Shown: positions 14,778 through 50,280 of the stretch, piece by piece
Position numbering within the stretch: position 1 is the first letter of the stretch
How the letters are laid out: every line of letters starts with the position of its first letter
IMG/VR virus record: IMGVR_UViG_3300035389_000027
Span: 1 to 53,544 of that record
Source: a virus
Strand: one strand, 5' to 3'
DNA: 53,544 nucleotides
Translations under genes and position numbers: made by a program
The notes under the pieces: model-generated
Told to the model about the DNA's origin: nothing
Database searches by the model: none
Seen by the model: only the letters and a program-made list of their open reading frames with translations

Positions 14778-14789
14778 CTTTAAATAAAG
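14778..14789. promoter_or_regulatory. Recurrent motif CTTTAAATAAAG in a gene gap
   Basis: This 12-base motif lies 18 bases before the kinase-like gene. Its exact reverse complement, CTTTATTTAAAG, occurs in two other gaps, at 22135-22146 (capsid gene) and 49993-50004 (lysis cassette). It may be part of a phage promoter or a regulator site; no factor is known. Confidence 0.4.
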
Positions 14790-14806: not shown

Positions 14807-15340
14807 TTGTACAAAGTTATTTTACTAAACGGGAGCGCGGAAGCTGGCAAGGGCACGTTTGTGGATGCGGTAAAGGCGCTTGCTGCTGAAGATGGGTTGA
14901 TAGTCTGTAACCCGTCAACTGTTAATTCTGTCAAATTGGCATGTTCCTTCATGGGGGCACAGAATGAGCCGAAAACCGATAAAAAACGGCGGCTCTGGAA
15001 CAAGGTTAAGGCGGCATGGACCGAGTTTAACGACGGGCCGTTCAGGGAGTCGTTAGTGACCATTGATGCTCTGAATAAAAGCGGGCACCATATCGTTTTC
15101 TTGGATGTTCGTGAACCGTCAGAACTTGAAAAATACAGGGATCATTTCGGGGATGAGTGCCTTGCTCTTCTATTGACCAATCCCCGGCCGCCCGTCCCGG
15201 ACAATGACGCGGATCAGCATGTAAACGATTTTCAATACGACCATACCATAGAGAACCACGGCGGCCTGAAAGCGTTAAATGAGGCGGCCCGGATCTTCTA
15301 TAATCTCTTGATGGAGAAACGCCATGAAGTCGCGGCTTAG
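14807..15340 (+). CDS. Deoxynucleoside monophosphate kinase-like protein
   Basis: P-loop kinase-like protein of 177 aa. The Walker A variant NGSAEAGKGTFVDAV at ~8-20 matches phage dNMP kinases and related nucleotide kinases, and FLDVREPSELEKY fits the second conserved segment near a lid region. Such enzymes convert host or modified dNMPs to diphosphates to feed phage DNA synthesis. Start is TTG 14807 with AAAAGGAG 6 bases upstream. A recurrent AT-rich motif and a 66-base gap precede it, so it may have its own promoter. The exact substrate cannot be read from sequence. Confidence 0.7.
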   Translation: MYKVILLNGSAEAGKGTFVDAVKALAAEDGLIVCNPSTVNSVKLACSFMGAQNEPKTDKKRRLWNKVKAAWTEFNDGPFRESLVTIDALNKSGHHIVFLDVREPSELEKYRDHFGDECLALLLTNPRPPVPDNDADQHVNDFQYDHTIENHGGLKALNEAARIFYNLLMEKRHEVAA

Positions 15341-21805: not shown

Positions 21806-22020
21806 TGGCAATGACAAAAGAGGGTATGGCCGCGGCTATTCAATTACGCTTGGATGCTCTTGATCATACACAGACAACCAGCGCGACCACGGCCCAAGGT
21901 TACCAAAACAATATGCTTCTTGCTTTATGCCAAGGGATTATTGACCACATGGCGGCGGCCGCCCGAGTATACACCACGTCCGGTGCCCCAGATAGCGAGC
22001 ATGAAGGTAAAATCGAGTAG
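21805..22020 (+). CDS. Small hypothetical baseplate-region protein
   Basis: 72-residue protein starting at ATG 21805, overlapping the spike stop (TAATG). Mostly helical (KEGMAAAIQLRLDAL, NNMLLALCQGIIDHMAAAARV). Its size and position just after the spike suggest a small baseplate or structural protein, but no family is recognised. It is the last gene before the capsid leader. Confidence 0.5.
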   Translation: MAMTKEGMAAAIQLRLDALDHTQTTSATTAQGYQNNMLLALCQGIIDHMAAAARVYTTSGAPDSEHEGKIE

Positions 22021-22110
22021 CAGTGCCAGTCTCTACCCCTGCATGTTAAACCCGCCTATAACTGTTAGTCTCTGTCCCTGACCGGCCCGCCTTTACATTT
22101 ATTTGGATTT

Positions 22111-22172
22111 CTCTCCATAAAGTAAAAAAGATTACTTTATTTAAAGACATTTTTGTCAACTTTTATGGAGAG
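22111..22172 (+). promoter_or_regulatory. Alternative hairpins over the capsid ribosome binding site
   Basis: CTCTCCATAAAGT (22111-22123) can pair with 22159-22172, which contains the Shine-Dalgarno GGAGAGG of the capsid gene (one bulged base). A second hairpin, TAAAGTAA (22118-22125) with TTACTTTA (22132-22139), uses part of the same left arm, so the two cannot form together. The CTTTATTTAAAG motif lies at 22135-22146. This looks like a translation switch or promoter region; no T-tract. Confidence 0.5.
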
Positions 22173-22179
22173 GTTACGA

Positions 22180-23790
22180 ATGAAAGCAAAATACAAAAAA
22201 AGAATGGAAGATATCGAGCGTCGGTCCAACGAAATGAAAGAGACCTTGCTTGACCCTGTTGTTGATGACTCGACCGGTAAATTCATCGGTGAATCCGCTA
22301 CCCGTAACGAACGGCTTGAAGCGGTGACCGAGAATTCTGTTTTTGAGAGCGCCGGCAAAGGCGCGGCCACGATTCAGGGGACCGCTTCCAATGCCCTGCG
22401 TAAATACTGTAACACCTATGGTGCCATGCCGGGTGCAGACCTGCTGGCATCCGCCCATATGGCCATCGAGCAAGGCCTTGCATGTACCTCTGAAAATGGA
22501 AACCGTCCTGATGGGCTAGTGCTTGAGTCCGCCTTATCCACCACTGAGGGCATTTTGATGCGTGACCGGATGGTTGCCCTGGTGTTACCTGTTTTGCTTC
22601 ATTCCATCACGTCCAGAATGGTTACCCATATTCCCGGGACCTTTAACCAGTCCGAGATTTTTAAAATCAGGCGGATTGCAAAAAGCGCGTTCGGCGGTGT
22701 CTCCATCGGTGATGAGATCGGTTACGACTTTTCCGGACAGTACGGCAGCATGGACCAGCGTTACGAGGTCAAAGCCGGAGATGGTATAGAAGTCGGCGGC
22801 GCGGCCAGTACCACGGCCGACTTTTTCCAATGGGATTCGGAAGCTGTACTGGGTGTTGTCACGCCCATGAAGAAAAAAAGAACCAAGATCATGCATGACA
22901 ATGACATCGTTGCCGTGGATGACGGCTCCGGTAACCTGTACGGCACCTTTCTTGTCGGGGAGACCACCGTTACCGTGACCGGTACGGTTAACAATGCCAC
23001 CGGTGTTGTGAATCCTGTTTTTTCGACTGCCCCGGCAGCTGGAATCAAAATTGCCGTTGCCTTCGATGTCGATATTGAAGCCAAGCCGGCCCTGATACCG
23101 ATCACTGATTACGAAATGGACAGCGGTGTTCTGTATCCCCACGAATCCGCCATTTCCTGCGGTGTAACGCTTCAGTCCCTCTGGGCCATGCGTCGGGAAT
23201 ATAACCTGAACATGGAATCCATGGCAATGACCGACCTGCGAAACCTTATTGCTACTGACAAAGATCGTAAAATCCTTTCGGATCTGCGGTATTTTGCCAA
23301 GGGTAGCGCATCTTGGAACGTCACCGTGCCCGAGGGCCTGTATTTTCAGGAACATTATGAAACCCTGCGGAAAAAGCTGATTGAAATCGATGCCACTATG
23401 ATGAACCGTACCGGTAAGGCTGGTTTGTCCGGGGTCGTTTTTGACAAGAACTCCGCTACCATTGTCAAGGCCATAAAAGCCCCGCATTTCGTACCGGCCC
23501 CCGGTTACAGGCGTTTGCCTTATCCGCATTACATTGGTCGACTGTTCGGCATGTGGGACGCTTACGAAGACCCCCAGGGAACCGCAAACACAAACCTGTG
23601 TTACGGCGTTGGTAACAGCGTTGGGGAAGCCGGTTATGTTGCCGGTGATTGTGTCCCGGCCCTGCCTTTCAAACATCCGGTCCTTGGTGATCTCAAATAC
23701 TCCAGTACCCTCTGGAGCCTGGGCTATCGTGACCTGAACCCCTTTGACGGTCGAAACTATTTCATGGAACTGCTTTTTACAACCTCCTGA
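22180..23790 (+). CDS. Major capsid protein
   Basis: Main shell protein, 536 aa. The conserved core is recognisable (DGLVLESALSTTEGILMRDR, HIPGTFNQSEIFKIRRIAKSAFGGVSIGDEIG, a D-S-G-V-L-Y-PHESAISCGV segment, and a C-terminal PHYIGRLFGMWDAYEDP) and matches a family of phage major capsid proteins. A threonine/valine-rich insert (~260-300) looks like an Ig-like or decoration insert. I chose ATG 22180 with GGAGAGG upstream; a TTG at 22153 lies further back in the leader. The N-terminal ~70 residues may be a removable scaffold, but no protease was seen in the window. Confidence 0.88.
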   Translation: MKAKYKKRMEDIERRSNEMKETLLDPVVDDSTGKFIGESATRNERLEAVTENSVFESAGKGAATIQGTASNALRKYCNTYGAMPGADLLASAHMAIEQGLACTSENGNRPDGLVLESALSTTEGILMRDRMVALVLPVLLHSITSRMVTHIPGTFNQSEIFKIRRIAKSAFGGVSIGDEIGYDFSGQYGSMDQRYEVKAGDGIEVGGAASTTADFFQWDSEAVLGVVTPMKKKRTKIMHDNDIVAVDDGSGNLYGTFLVGETTVTVTGTVNNATGVVNPVFSTAPAAGIKIAVAFDVDIEAKPALIPITDYEMDSGVLYPHESAISCGVTLQSLWAMRREYNLNMESMAMTDLRNLIATDKDRKILSDLRYFAKGSASWNVTVPEGLYFQEHYETLRKKLIEIDATMMNRTGKAGLSGVVFDKNSATIVKAIKAPHFVPAPGYRRLPYPHYIGRLFGMWDAYEDPQGTANTNLCYGVGNSVGEAGYVAGDCVPALPFKHPVLGDLKYSSTLWSLGYRDLNPFDGRNYFMELLFTTS

Positions 23791-23868: not shown

Positions 23869-24273
23869 ATGGAAAAAATTAAATTGAAGATCATAAACCC
23901 CTCATCGAGTGGGTTTAGTTATACGGCGCGACAGTTCGAAGCGGTTATCCCCGGGCACCGATTTTTTGACAATCCTGTCGAAATCGAGATTCCCGTGGAT
24001 TTAGAGGAAAACTTCACGTCGCTTTTGCGGGAGAAATTCCCTCACATGGTTATCAAAACAGTCGAGCCCGAAGTGCCCGAAGTGCCTAACCCGGCCGGGC
24101 CAATCCCTGAAAAGGATAATTTTTTTGCAGGATGCACGGCGAAAAAAGAAGCCGATGACGTGTGGGTTGTAACCGTGCCCGGTGGCGAAGCGCTCCGGAT
24201 TGAAGGCGTTACTCATCACAAACAGGCAAAATTGGCAGCGTATGAAAAGCTGTATGGGAGTGACGACAAATGA
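23869..24273 (+). CDS. Hypothetical protein between capsid and sheath
   Basis: 134-residue protein of unknown function, mostly beta-rich at the N-terminus (KIKLKIINPSSSGFSYTARQF) with a proline- and acidic-rich linker (EPEVPEVPNPAGPIPE) and a small C-terminal domain. Start ATG 23869 with CAGGAG upstream. Its stop overlaps the sheath start. Might be a head or tail accessory protein by position. Confidence 0.5.
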   Translation: MEKIKLKIINPSSSGFSYTARQFEAVIPGHRFFDNPVEIEIPVDLEENFTSLLREKFPHMVIKTVEPEVPEVPNPAGPIPEKDNFFAGCTAKKEADDVWVVTVPGGEALRIEGVTHHKQAKLAAYEKLYGSDDK

Positions 24274-29649: not shown

Positions 29650-31445
29650 AAGATCTAAAATCAATTTCCCTTCTAAAGAGTATCGACACGCGGCTTGACA
29701 AGCTTCTAAATGCTGTCATGTCGAGTTCAAAGGCCACTATCGGCCATATTCAAAAAGCTACCAAAAAGAGTGGACCATCGACCCGGCTTGCACGGAAAAA
29801 GCCCGTGACGGCCAAACTGAAGCGATCCACGGCCAAAAAATCGACCATTGTCATATCGATTGATGAGGTTGATAAGGTGTCCACAAAAAAGGTCGTTGCT
29901 AAGGCGGTCAAAAAAGTTGAACCCCTGCAAAAAAAGCAATCCACCGCAAAGAAAATATCGAAAAAGCCTATTGACCGGCAGGGCATTAAGCCCGTGCCGG
30001 CCGTAAAAAAAGCCTCGTCTGCAAACATTAATCAGGACCGGCAGGAAAAGACACAACAAAAAGCGAACAACAAGGGGTTTTTCAAATCCCTGGCCGCTTC
30101 GTTTTCGTCGGTCACCGGGAAAATAACGGGGCAGGTTAGGGAATTGACCGCCGGAAAGGGCGGCGTCGAACAAGGCCGGGATGCGGTGGGTATGGCTGCC
30201 GGCGGGCCGGTGTGGGGCGCAATCAAAGAAATGACCGAGTTTGTTTCTGATGTCCGGGGCGAACGGAGCATGACCGGGCGGATTGTCGGGAACCTGTTTA
30301 AACGGTTTGCCGGTAGGAAAGCGGCCGCCGATACTCCGGAAGGGTATAAGCCGGATAAAAACGGGAAACTTCGAGATAAAAAGGGGCATTTCCTGAAAGG
30401 GTCGGGAACTGTCGAGAAATCACCGGACAAAAAACAGGATAATAATGCCCTGTTCGATGATCTGTTCGGCAATGATGGACAAAAGGGCAAACCGGCCGGC
30501 CACCTTACCCGGAAAAGCAAAAAAAGAAGTGCCGAACAGCTGGGAACCGTCACAGACTCCATGAAGGTCAGTGAAAAGGCGGAGAAAAAACGGCATAAGG
30601 AACTTTTAAGCGCGGTCAAGGGAATCGATGCCGACGGGGACGGCGGCCTTCTAGGTAATTTGAAGGGCGGCAAGGGTATCTCCGGAAAAATAAAAGGCCT
30701 GCTGGGGCTGGGGGCTGCCGGCGGGGTGGCTACAAAGGGCGGCGGCATCCTGAGCAAGGTCCTTGGCGGTGGCAAAAAAGCCATGGGCGCAGTGAAGGGG
30801 CTGGGGGGCAAAGCGCTTGGGAAAGTCGGGGGCAAGGGGGCCTTGAAGGGGCTGGGTAAGGCTGGCGGCAAGTCGTTATTGAAAAAAATCCCTGTCTTGG
30901 GTCTTTTGGCGGGCGGTGGGTTTGCCATACAACGTCTGATGAAAGGGGACATGGCCGGTGCCCTTGGTGAATTAAGTTCAGGAGCGGCCAGCATGGTCCC
31001 GGGACTTGGAACGGCGGCATCTGTGGCTATTGATGCCGGACTCGTGGCGCGTGATCTGAAAAACGGTGAGGCAGATGAGACTGTAACGCCTCATGGACCG
31101 GATACCCGGGCCGAGATTGAACAGATCCGGGCGGCCAAGAAAAACAAATCTTTAAATAAAGGCAAAAAGAAAACATTACAAGCAGGGACAGTATCAGGCA
31201 AAAAAAGCAGTACGGTTCCCGGTAAAATTGGTAAGACAGTGTTACCCGTGTCGCCGATTAAGGCCCCGGCCGTGTCAAAAGCACCGGCTACGCAGTCTCA
31301 ACCGGCGGCGGCGAAGCAACAACAACCGGTTATTGTGATAAAAAACGCGGAAAGAGAAAAAGAAAAAAAGAAATCTTTACCGCATAATATTCCAACTGAG
31401 TATGACGATACCGTTTTGACGCTAATGGCGCATGACCGATTATGA
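29646..31445 (+). CDS. Tape measure protein
   Basis: 599-residue protein that would set tail length and help eject DNA. It has a basic N-terminal part (~50-140, rich in K, S and A), a glycine- and alanine-rich hydrophobic region (~335-470, GLLGLGAAGGVATKGGGILSKV, KSLLKKIPVLGLLAGGGFAIQRLM) and a basic, proline-rich C-terminus, as in many tape measures. GTG start overlapping the chaperone extension. It is short for a phage tape measure and lacks clear long coiled coils, so some uncertainty remains. Confidence 0.65.
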   Translation: MKDLKSISLLKSIDTRLDKLLNAVMSSSKATIGHIQKATKKSGPSTRLARKKPVTAKLKRSTAKKSTIVISIDEVDKVSTKKVVAKAVKKVEPLQKKQSTAKKISKKPIDRQGIKPVPAVKKASSANINQDRQEKTQQKANNKGFFKSLAASFSSVTGKITGQVRELTAGKGGVEQGRDAVGMAAGGPVWGAIKEMTEFVSDVRGERSMTGRIVGNLFKRFAGRKAAADTPEGYKPDKNGKLRDKKGHFLKGSGTVEKSPDKKQDNNALFDDLFGNDGQKGKPAGHLTRKSKKRSAEQLGTVTDSMKVSEKAEKKRHKELLSAVKGIDADGDGGLLGNLKGGKGISGKIKGLLGLGAAGGVATKGGGILSKVLGGGKKAMGAVKGLGGKALGKVGGKGALKGLGKAGGKSLLKKIPVLGLLAGGGFAIQRLMKGDMAGALGELSSGAASMVPGLGTAASVAIDAGLVARDLKNGEADETVTPHGPDTRAEIEQIRAAKKNKSLNKGKKKTLQAGTVSGKKSSTVPGKIGKTVLPVSPIKAPAVSKAPATQSQPAAAKQQQPVIVIKNAEREKEKKKSLPHNIPTEYDDTVLTLMAHDRL

Positions 31446-49992: not shown

Positions 49993-50004
49993 CTTTATTT
50001 AAAG
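49993..50004. promoter_or_regulatory. CTTTATTTAAAG motif before the lysis cassette
   Basis: The same 12 bases occur before the capsid gene (22135) and, in reverse complement, before the kinase-like gene (14778). Here they lie 24 bases before the first lysis gene. A GTTTAAAAGG shared with the 14778 site follows. Suggests a promoter element or regulator site. Confidence 0.4.
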
Positions 50005-50028: not shown

Positions 50029-50280
50029 ATGCCTAAAATAAAAGGTTTTTTCCAGGATGCGGTTGGCAATTTTTCAATGATGCGGCTTTTGTCCTTCATT
50101 ATCACGATCACGGTAATGTTGATTTGGGCCGTGGAATGTTTGCGTAAAAATGAATTTCTTGGATGGGGGGACAGCCAAGTTTACATACTTATCGCGTGTA
50201 TCGTTCCCACTGTCCTACAAAAGCTGGTGGAATCCGGCGGGCTGCAGTTCCTATTCGGCAGCAAAAAGGCGACTAAATGA
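50029..50280 (+). CDS. Small membrane protein, holin candidate
   Basis: 83-residue protein with two predicted membrane helices (MRLLSFIITITVMLIWAVECL and SQVYILIACIVPTVLQKLVES region) and a short charged C-terminus. Located just before the endolysin candidate and overlapping it (ATGA), the usual place for a holin. AGGGAG upstream of the ATG. The family is not recognised. Confidence 0.65.
   Translation: MPKIKGFFQDAVGNFSMMRLLSFIITITVMLIWAVECLRKNEFLGWGDSQVYILIACIVPTVLQKLVESGGLQFLFGSKKATK

Follow-up and report, generated by a model that had tools for sequence, protein, structure and literature searches.

A leader helix predicted to mask the Shine-Dalgarno sequence of a P1-like major capsid gene, and its resemblance to the read-through locks of phage T4

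In bacteriophage T4, upstream-initiated RNAs of genes e, soc, 49 and I-TevI carry a leader helix that hides the Shine-Dalgarno (SD) sequence (PMC3014915). The late promoter is located within or close to the 5' arm of this helix, so that late RNAs, which begin within the hairpin, lack that arm and escape the masking (PMC3014915). The locus described here, the leader of a major capsid gene in a virus record of 53,544 bases (hereafter, the window), resembles these T4 genes in several respects. The capsid SD is predicted to be masked in upstream-initiated RNA, the gene is of the same kind (a late structural or lysis gene, here the major capsid gene), and the homologous gene 23 of phage P1 has a predicted -10 box and an inferred start at the 5' arm, as in T4. 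The differences lie in the phage family, in the late activator, which is Lpa in P1, and in the putatively locked gene being that of the major capsid protein. With P1 gene 23 and its predicted late promoter LP23, the window shares a homologous gene, the order of capsid and then sheath gene, and an SD-matching anti-SD arm about 50 nt upstream of the start codon. However, the two leader sequences are unrelated, the helix is 11 bp long in the window and 7 bp in P1, and neither a recognisable LP23-type promoter nor an Lpa homologue was found in the window.

The features of the capsid gene and of the helix over its SD (helix A) are as follows.

22180-23790, + strand: gene for the major capsid protein (536 amino acids), homologous to P1 gene 23 (phrog_1014 match and similarity to P1 gp23)
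22167-22173, + strand: SD sequence GGAGAGG, six bases before the ATG at 22180; unpaired probability of 22167-22172 in the free ensemble, 0.00-0.004
22111-22123, + strand: anti-SD arm CTCTCCATAAAGT, the 5' arm of helix A; its SD-covering part is 22111-22117
22159-22172, + strand: ACTTTTATGGAGAG, the 3' arm of helix A, which holds most of the SD

The identification of the downstream gene as a capsid gene in the initial annotation was borne out by a profile match of the 22180-23790 gene to phrog_1014 and by full-length similarity of its product to P1 gp23 (99% coverage, about 30% identity, E 2e-59). A tail-sheath gene at 24270 lies 3' of it, and this capsid-sheath order is that of P1 and D6. Judged by full-length similarity and sheath synteny, the gene belongs to the P1 gp23 major capsid family. 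The preceding gene ends at 22020, leaving a 159-nt leader that is exclusive to the capsid gene. The open reading frame called mechanically begins at 22153, at an in-frame TTG, whereas the SD indicates the ATG at 22180 as the start; a further in-frame ATG at 22165 overlaps the SD region.

Helix A has as its core a perfect inverted repeat of 11 bp (22111-22121/22162-22172), followed by two more base pairs beyond a one-U bulge. Its seven outer pairs, CTCTCCA/TGGAGAG, cover the SD, of which GGAGAG is paired. In predicted folding the SD was paired with P > 0.99 in the free ensemble, and the 96-nt leader folded at -18.9 kcal/mol, compared with -10.7 ± 2.9 kcal/mol for shuffled sequences (z = -2.85). 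When 22111-22117 were deleted in silico, opening the SD cost 1.3 instead of 7.8 kcal/mol.

A purine-rich SD close to a pyrimidine-rich leader might be complementary to it by chance. The duplex between SD and leader (-15.5 kcal/mol) gave a shuffle p of 0.0003 for the leader range -75 to -22 (10,000 shuffles), a value that is good rather than strict, as the boundaries of the range were picked once the hairpin was known; with the range -110 to -22, p was 0.0024. The capsid gene ranked first of 50 genes in the window in this respect (p = 0.015 after correction for the 50 genes), and a signal in the family remained when the window was left out. Against this stand two other window genes that also reached p < 0.05, the sister phage L002, in which the helix is not kept, and several further relatives without it. 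We consider chance quite unlikely. The proposal of the initial annotation that the leader is able to hide the capsid SD is thus supported above chance, for the window as well as across the family, and the masking of the capsid SD by a leader helix is probably real.

The initial annotation went further and proposed a switch, in which helix A and a second hairpin (hairpin B) would be mutually exclusive and hairpin B would free the SD, possibly in response to RNA processing or a bound protein. The arms it named, CTCTCCATAAAGT at 22111-22123, ACTTTTATGGAGAG at 22159-22172, TAAAGTAA at 22118-22125 and TTACTTTA at 22132-22139, were all found in place, and a third small hairpin was identified.

22118-22139, + strand: hairpin B, TAAAGTAA/TTACTTTA, AU-rich and local; in constrained folding it can coexist with the outer half of helix A
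22146-22157, + strand: small hairpin C, GACA-TTTT-TGTC, just 5' of the SD, -3.8 kcal/mol

The leader does share with attenuation and riboswitch-type leaders a pair of possible helices with a common strand, as the 5' arm of hairpin B has six bases in common with the arm of helix A. Hairpin B would also be the first to form during transcription, and without its 3' arm the predicted cost of opening the SD rose from 7.8 to 10.2 kcal/mol. However, the conflict between the two helices is restricted to six A/U-rich inner pairs of helix A (22118-22123). The seven SD-covering pairs can form around hairpin B and, as a result, its formation does not free the SD. With hairpin B enforced, the outer helix had a probability of 0.98 at 37 °C (0.80-0.99 between 20 and 60 °C), and 22167-22172 were unpaired at just 0.002-0.009, so that SD accessibility was not raised. 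Hairpin B by itself contributes only -4.6 kcal/mol, far weaker than helix A, and had a probability of 0.13 in the free ensemble. The seven outer pairs of helix A together with hairpins B and C amounted to -17.8 kcal/mol, the 13-bp helix A with hairpin C to -15.8 kcal/mol, and the minimum free energy (MFE) structure to -18.9 kcal/mol. Constrained folding therefore rules out mutual exclusivity, and the geometry of a two-state RNA switch is unsupported. Conservation of both pairings had been suggested as a check, and at the aligned position L002 lacks helix A as well as the complete hairpin B. Unlike attenuation and riboswitch-type leaders, this leader combines compatible helices with no known ligand, aptamer or terminator; a search of the leader against Rfam families returned no match, and a consensus scan at the site returned no intrinsic terminator and no sigma-70 promoter. 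A ligand would have to open the outer seven pairs as well, and we regard such a switch as very improbable.

Predicted accessibility of the SD depended instead on where the RNA begins. With a first base at 22090 or earlier, opening the SD was predicted to cost 7-9 kcal/mol; with a start at 22116-22144, the figure was about 1 kcal/mol. This fall to about 1 kcal/mol with a start downstream of 22111 is a more economical way of releasing the SD than hairpin B. An mRNA begun upstream of about 22110 would carry the anti-SD arm, which would fold onto the capsid SD, and such read-through mRNA would be translated poorly. A late transcript begun within the leader, past the arm, would have its SD free, and capsid protein would be made solely from this transcript, whose promoter would place the start between about 22112 and 22165. 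Hairpins B and C would then lie within the loop of the lock and would not act as its antagonists. A consensus scan yielded no convincing promoter at the expected place in the window. For the window, the analysis shows that the arm and the SD are complementary, that this goes beyond random expectation and that predicted access to the SD varies with the 5' end of the RNA; we infer that the helix forms in cells, that the window holds a late promoter and start site, and that locking is the purpose. We lean, tentatively, towards the capsid leader being a lock like that of T4 e and soc, which silences upstream-initiated mRNA and is opened by a transcription start inside the leader.

The same stretch of DNA holds repeated motifs that could act as DNA, and these bear on the interpretation of the leader.

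22135-22146, + strand: palindrome CTTTATTTAAAG; paired palindromes are found at the same place in sister phage L002
22028-22095, + strand: two degenerate direct repeats (AGTCTCTNNCCCTG ... CCCGCCTWTA) with spacings of 39 and 35, intergenic, just 5' of the anti-SD arm

Four copies of the 12-bp palindrome CTTTAWWTAAAG are found in the window, compared with 0.03 expected. Three of them (14778-14789, 22135-22146 and 49993-50004) lie just 5' of the gene starts at 14807, 22180 and 50029, which appear to be those of late operons, and the fourth (31150-31161) is intragenic. The gene at 14807 is dNMP-kinase-like and stands ahead of a baseplate wedge gene, that at 22180 is the capsid gene, and the start at 50029 precedes a gene with similarity to endolysins. 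The palindrome is a candidate operator or late-promoter element. In the capsid leader of L002 (2923-2958), the palindromes CTTTTTAAAAAG and CTTTTTTAAAAG are exactly 24 bp apart and are the sole CTTTWWWWAAAG sites in its 27-kb contig; the anti-SD arm and the palindrome of the window are likewise 24 bp apart. A DNA palindrome may explain the conserved part of hairpin B in the sister phage equally well. The direct repeats at 22028-22095, of which there are no further exact copies in the window, are possibly an activator or promoter region.

It could be argued that AAAGTAA/TTACTTT and CTTTATTTAAAG bind a late activator or repressor, and that complementarity to the SD is partly a by-product. The number of copies of CTTTAWWTAAAG, the position of three of them right before gene starts and the 24-bp distance common to L002 and the window all speak for this explanation. 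However, helix A fits the SD base for base and ends at the SD edge, its 40-nt spacer would be unusual in an operator, and relatives of unrelated sequence show masking again. A role of CTTTAWWTAAAG as a late -10 box was rejected, as one copy of its core ends almost at an SD, a position that does not fit a promoter. Action as DNA sites in place of a lock is, in our estimation, unlikely.

The closest relative with a capsid leader is L002, whose capsid protein is 77% identical to that of the window; none closer was found for direct covariation. Its base-aligned arm, CTTTTTAAAAAG, is a poor match to the SD, and helix A is degraded there, which leaves helix A of the window without direct covariation. 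L002 has an alternative, weaker pairing of its SD, TTCTTTTATGG with CCATGGAGAA (p = 0.09). A further contig that is identical to the window (L146/G001) begins inside the sheath gene and so does not include the capsid leader.

Masking was also compared at the level of the gene-23 family. In 23 gene-23 leaders, the duplexes between each SD and its own leader were stronger than those with shuffled leaders (Fisher 3.6e-6, KS 0.0007), while 92 control P1 genes without an annotated late promoter showed no bias (Fisher 0.30); the two groups differed with a Mann-Whitney p of 0.005. A set of 29 gene-23-like leaders, from which near-duplicates had been dropped and to which seven new leaders had been added, was used to compare own with foreign pairing. 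Each SD paired better with its own leader (p = 2e-5, and again 2e-5 with the window excluded), and the seven new leaders alone gave p values from 0.014 to 0.054, varying with leader length. Masking at the start of gene 23 is recurrent but limited to roughly a third to half of the leaders: many gene-23 leaders (e.g., L003, L004, L134 and L142) have no masking above chance, and several SDs are open. A pattern scan across phages with the SD arm was unspecific.

Several clusters of leaders show how masking is built in different sequences. JK004 (Cronobacter) and related Salmonella phage-plasmids have the same -22 box as P1 and nearly the same -10 box. Their arm, TCGTCCT or CCGTCCT, is as far from promoter and start codon as the P1 arm and forms 5-6 of 7 pairs with the SD AGGACAA, compared with 4 in P1/JK004 hybrids. 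As column-based covariation counts vary with the alignment, the P1/JK004 pairs were counted at a fixed distance from promoter and start codon. The resulting covariation, between only two haplotypes (p about 0.02-0.07), is suggestive. In D6-type leaders, down to Pantoea, the SD lies within GCCC/GGGC and the GTG start within TTCAC/GTGAA; all cells of these helices (100%) are paired, with one compensatory pair. In Aeromonas leaders, TTCCCTTGG is paired with CCAGGGGAA, including G-U pairs and matching changes, and in Vibrio leaders an arm near -95 pairs with the SD (100% paired, one compensatory change). Control shuffles reached the covariation score in 83/500 cases for Vibrio, 25/500 for D6 and 108/500 for Aeromonas, so that each cluster alone is statistically weak. 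A separate observation concerns a P1-like phage-plasmid of Alteromonas macleodii (L135 1000-2618), which encodes a diversity-generating retroelement (Avd and reverse transcriptase) 5' of its tail genes.

In P1 itself, the gene-23 arm CTCTTCC is complementary to the SD GGAAGAG over 7 bp. It lies directly 3' of TAAAAT, the -10 hexamer of LP23 (this promoter is itself a prediction), and before the inferred start. A start seven bases past the -10 hexamer would fall on the last base of the arm, and late transcripts would consequently lack the arm. The gene-23 SD had an unpaired probability of 0.00-0.01 in RNAs from 2926/2935 versus 0.78 in RNA from the inferred late start at 2941. In longer P1 read-through RNAs, a further hairpin, AATCTCTT/AAGGGATT, competes with this pairing and weakens the effect, so that the difference between read-through and late RNA was not significant against shuffles (p = 0.25).

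The layout of P1 also bears on whether the leader serves as a translational operator, that is, whether a phage or host protein binds the three-way junction formed by helix A and hairpins B and C and stabilises or opens it, for example in autogenous control by a capsid-assembly protein. The structured three-helix leader of the window lies within 1.1 kcal/mol of the MFE, and T4 gp32 and gp43 provide precedents for protein-bound leaders (PMC3014915). However, the P1 arm is upstream of the inferred late start, and an operator on late mRNA would be missing there. Across the gene-23 leaders, moreover, no sequence or loop motif is conserved and masking alone recurs. We therefore think a protein-bound operator unlikely.

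The lock reading was extended to other P1 late genes. Nine P1 late promoters were testable for loss of masking in the late transcript, with a combined Fisher p of 0.054, and a general lock at all P1 late promoters is thus unsupported. Individually, only LPsit/pmgC was significant (p = 0.01), and LPdar/lydA was borderline (0.07). LPsit/pmgC has the same layout as gene 23. The pmgC leader of P1 (L156 46576-46626, minus strand) has a hairpin over the translation start, GTAGAATC/GATTCTAC, that includes the LPsit -10 box. In the pmgC leader of D6 (L144 11719-11818), the ATG is covered by a different helix of 14 bp, CATTGTTTACAACT/AGTTGTA-GGC-AACAATG, and that of JK004 (L145 11310-11439) has a GCTATT/AATAGC hairpin over the translation start. 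At the P1 holin gene lydA (L156 31183-31230, minus strand), CCTCCT stands right after the LPdar -10 box and is complementary to the SD AGGAGG; the opening cost there was 10.3 for read-through RNA versus 4.5 for late RNA.

The lock mechanism itself is already known from T4; its new setting would be the P1-like phage family, for which no earlier report of such a lock was found in the open-access literature, in a search that did not include the main P1 genome paper, where a prior mention is possible. On the evidence from these leaders, it is possible, though we hold it rather doubtfully, that in P1-like phages and phage-plasmids the read-through RNA commonly has a locked translation start at the major capsid gene and at certain further late genes, pmgC being one. 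A late start inside the lock would remove it, and the lock sequence would turn over fast, with masking being repeatedly re-made. If so, a device known mainly from T4 would have arisen or persisted in an unrelated phage family, retaining its effect despite this turnover of sequence. Capsid protein would stay off where its gene adjoins genes that are expressed in the lysogen, as in P1, where gene 23 is downstream of parAB. P1 serves as a model phage, and phage-plasmids of its kind are common among enterobacteria. The lock would give these elements a second layer of lysogenic silence beside the repressor C1 and the activator Lpa, one that is testable in E. coli K-12.
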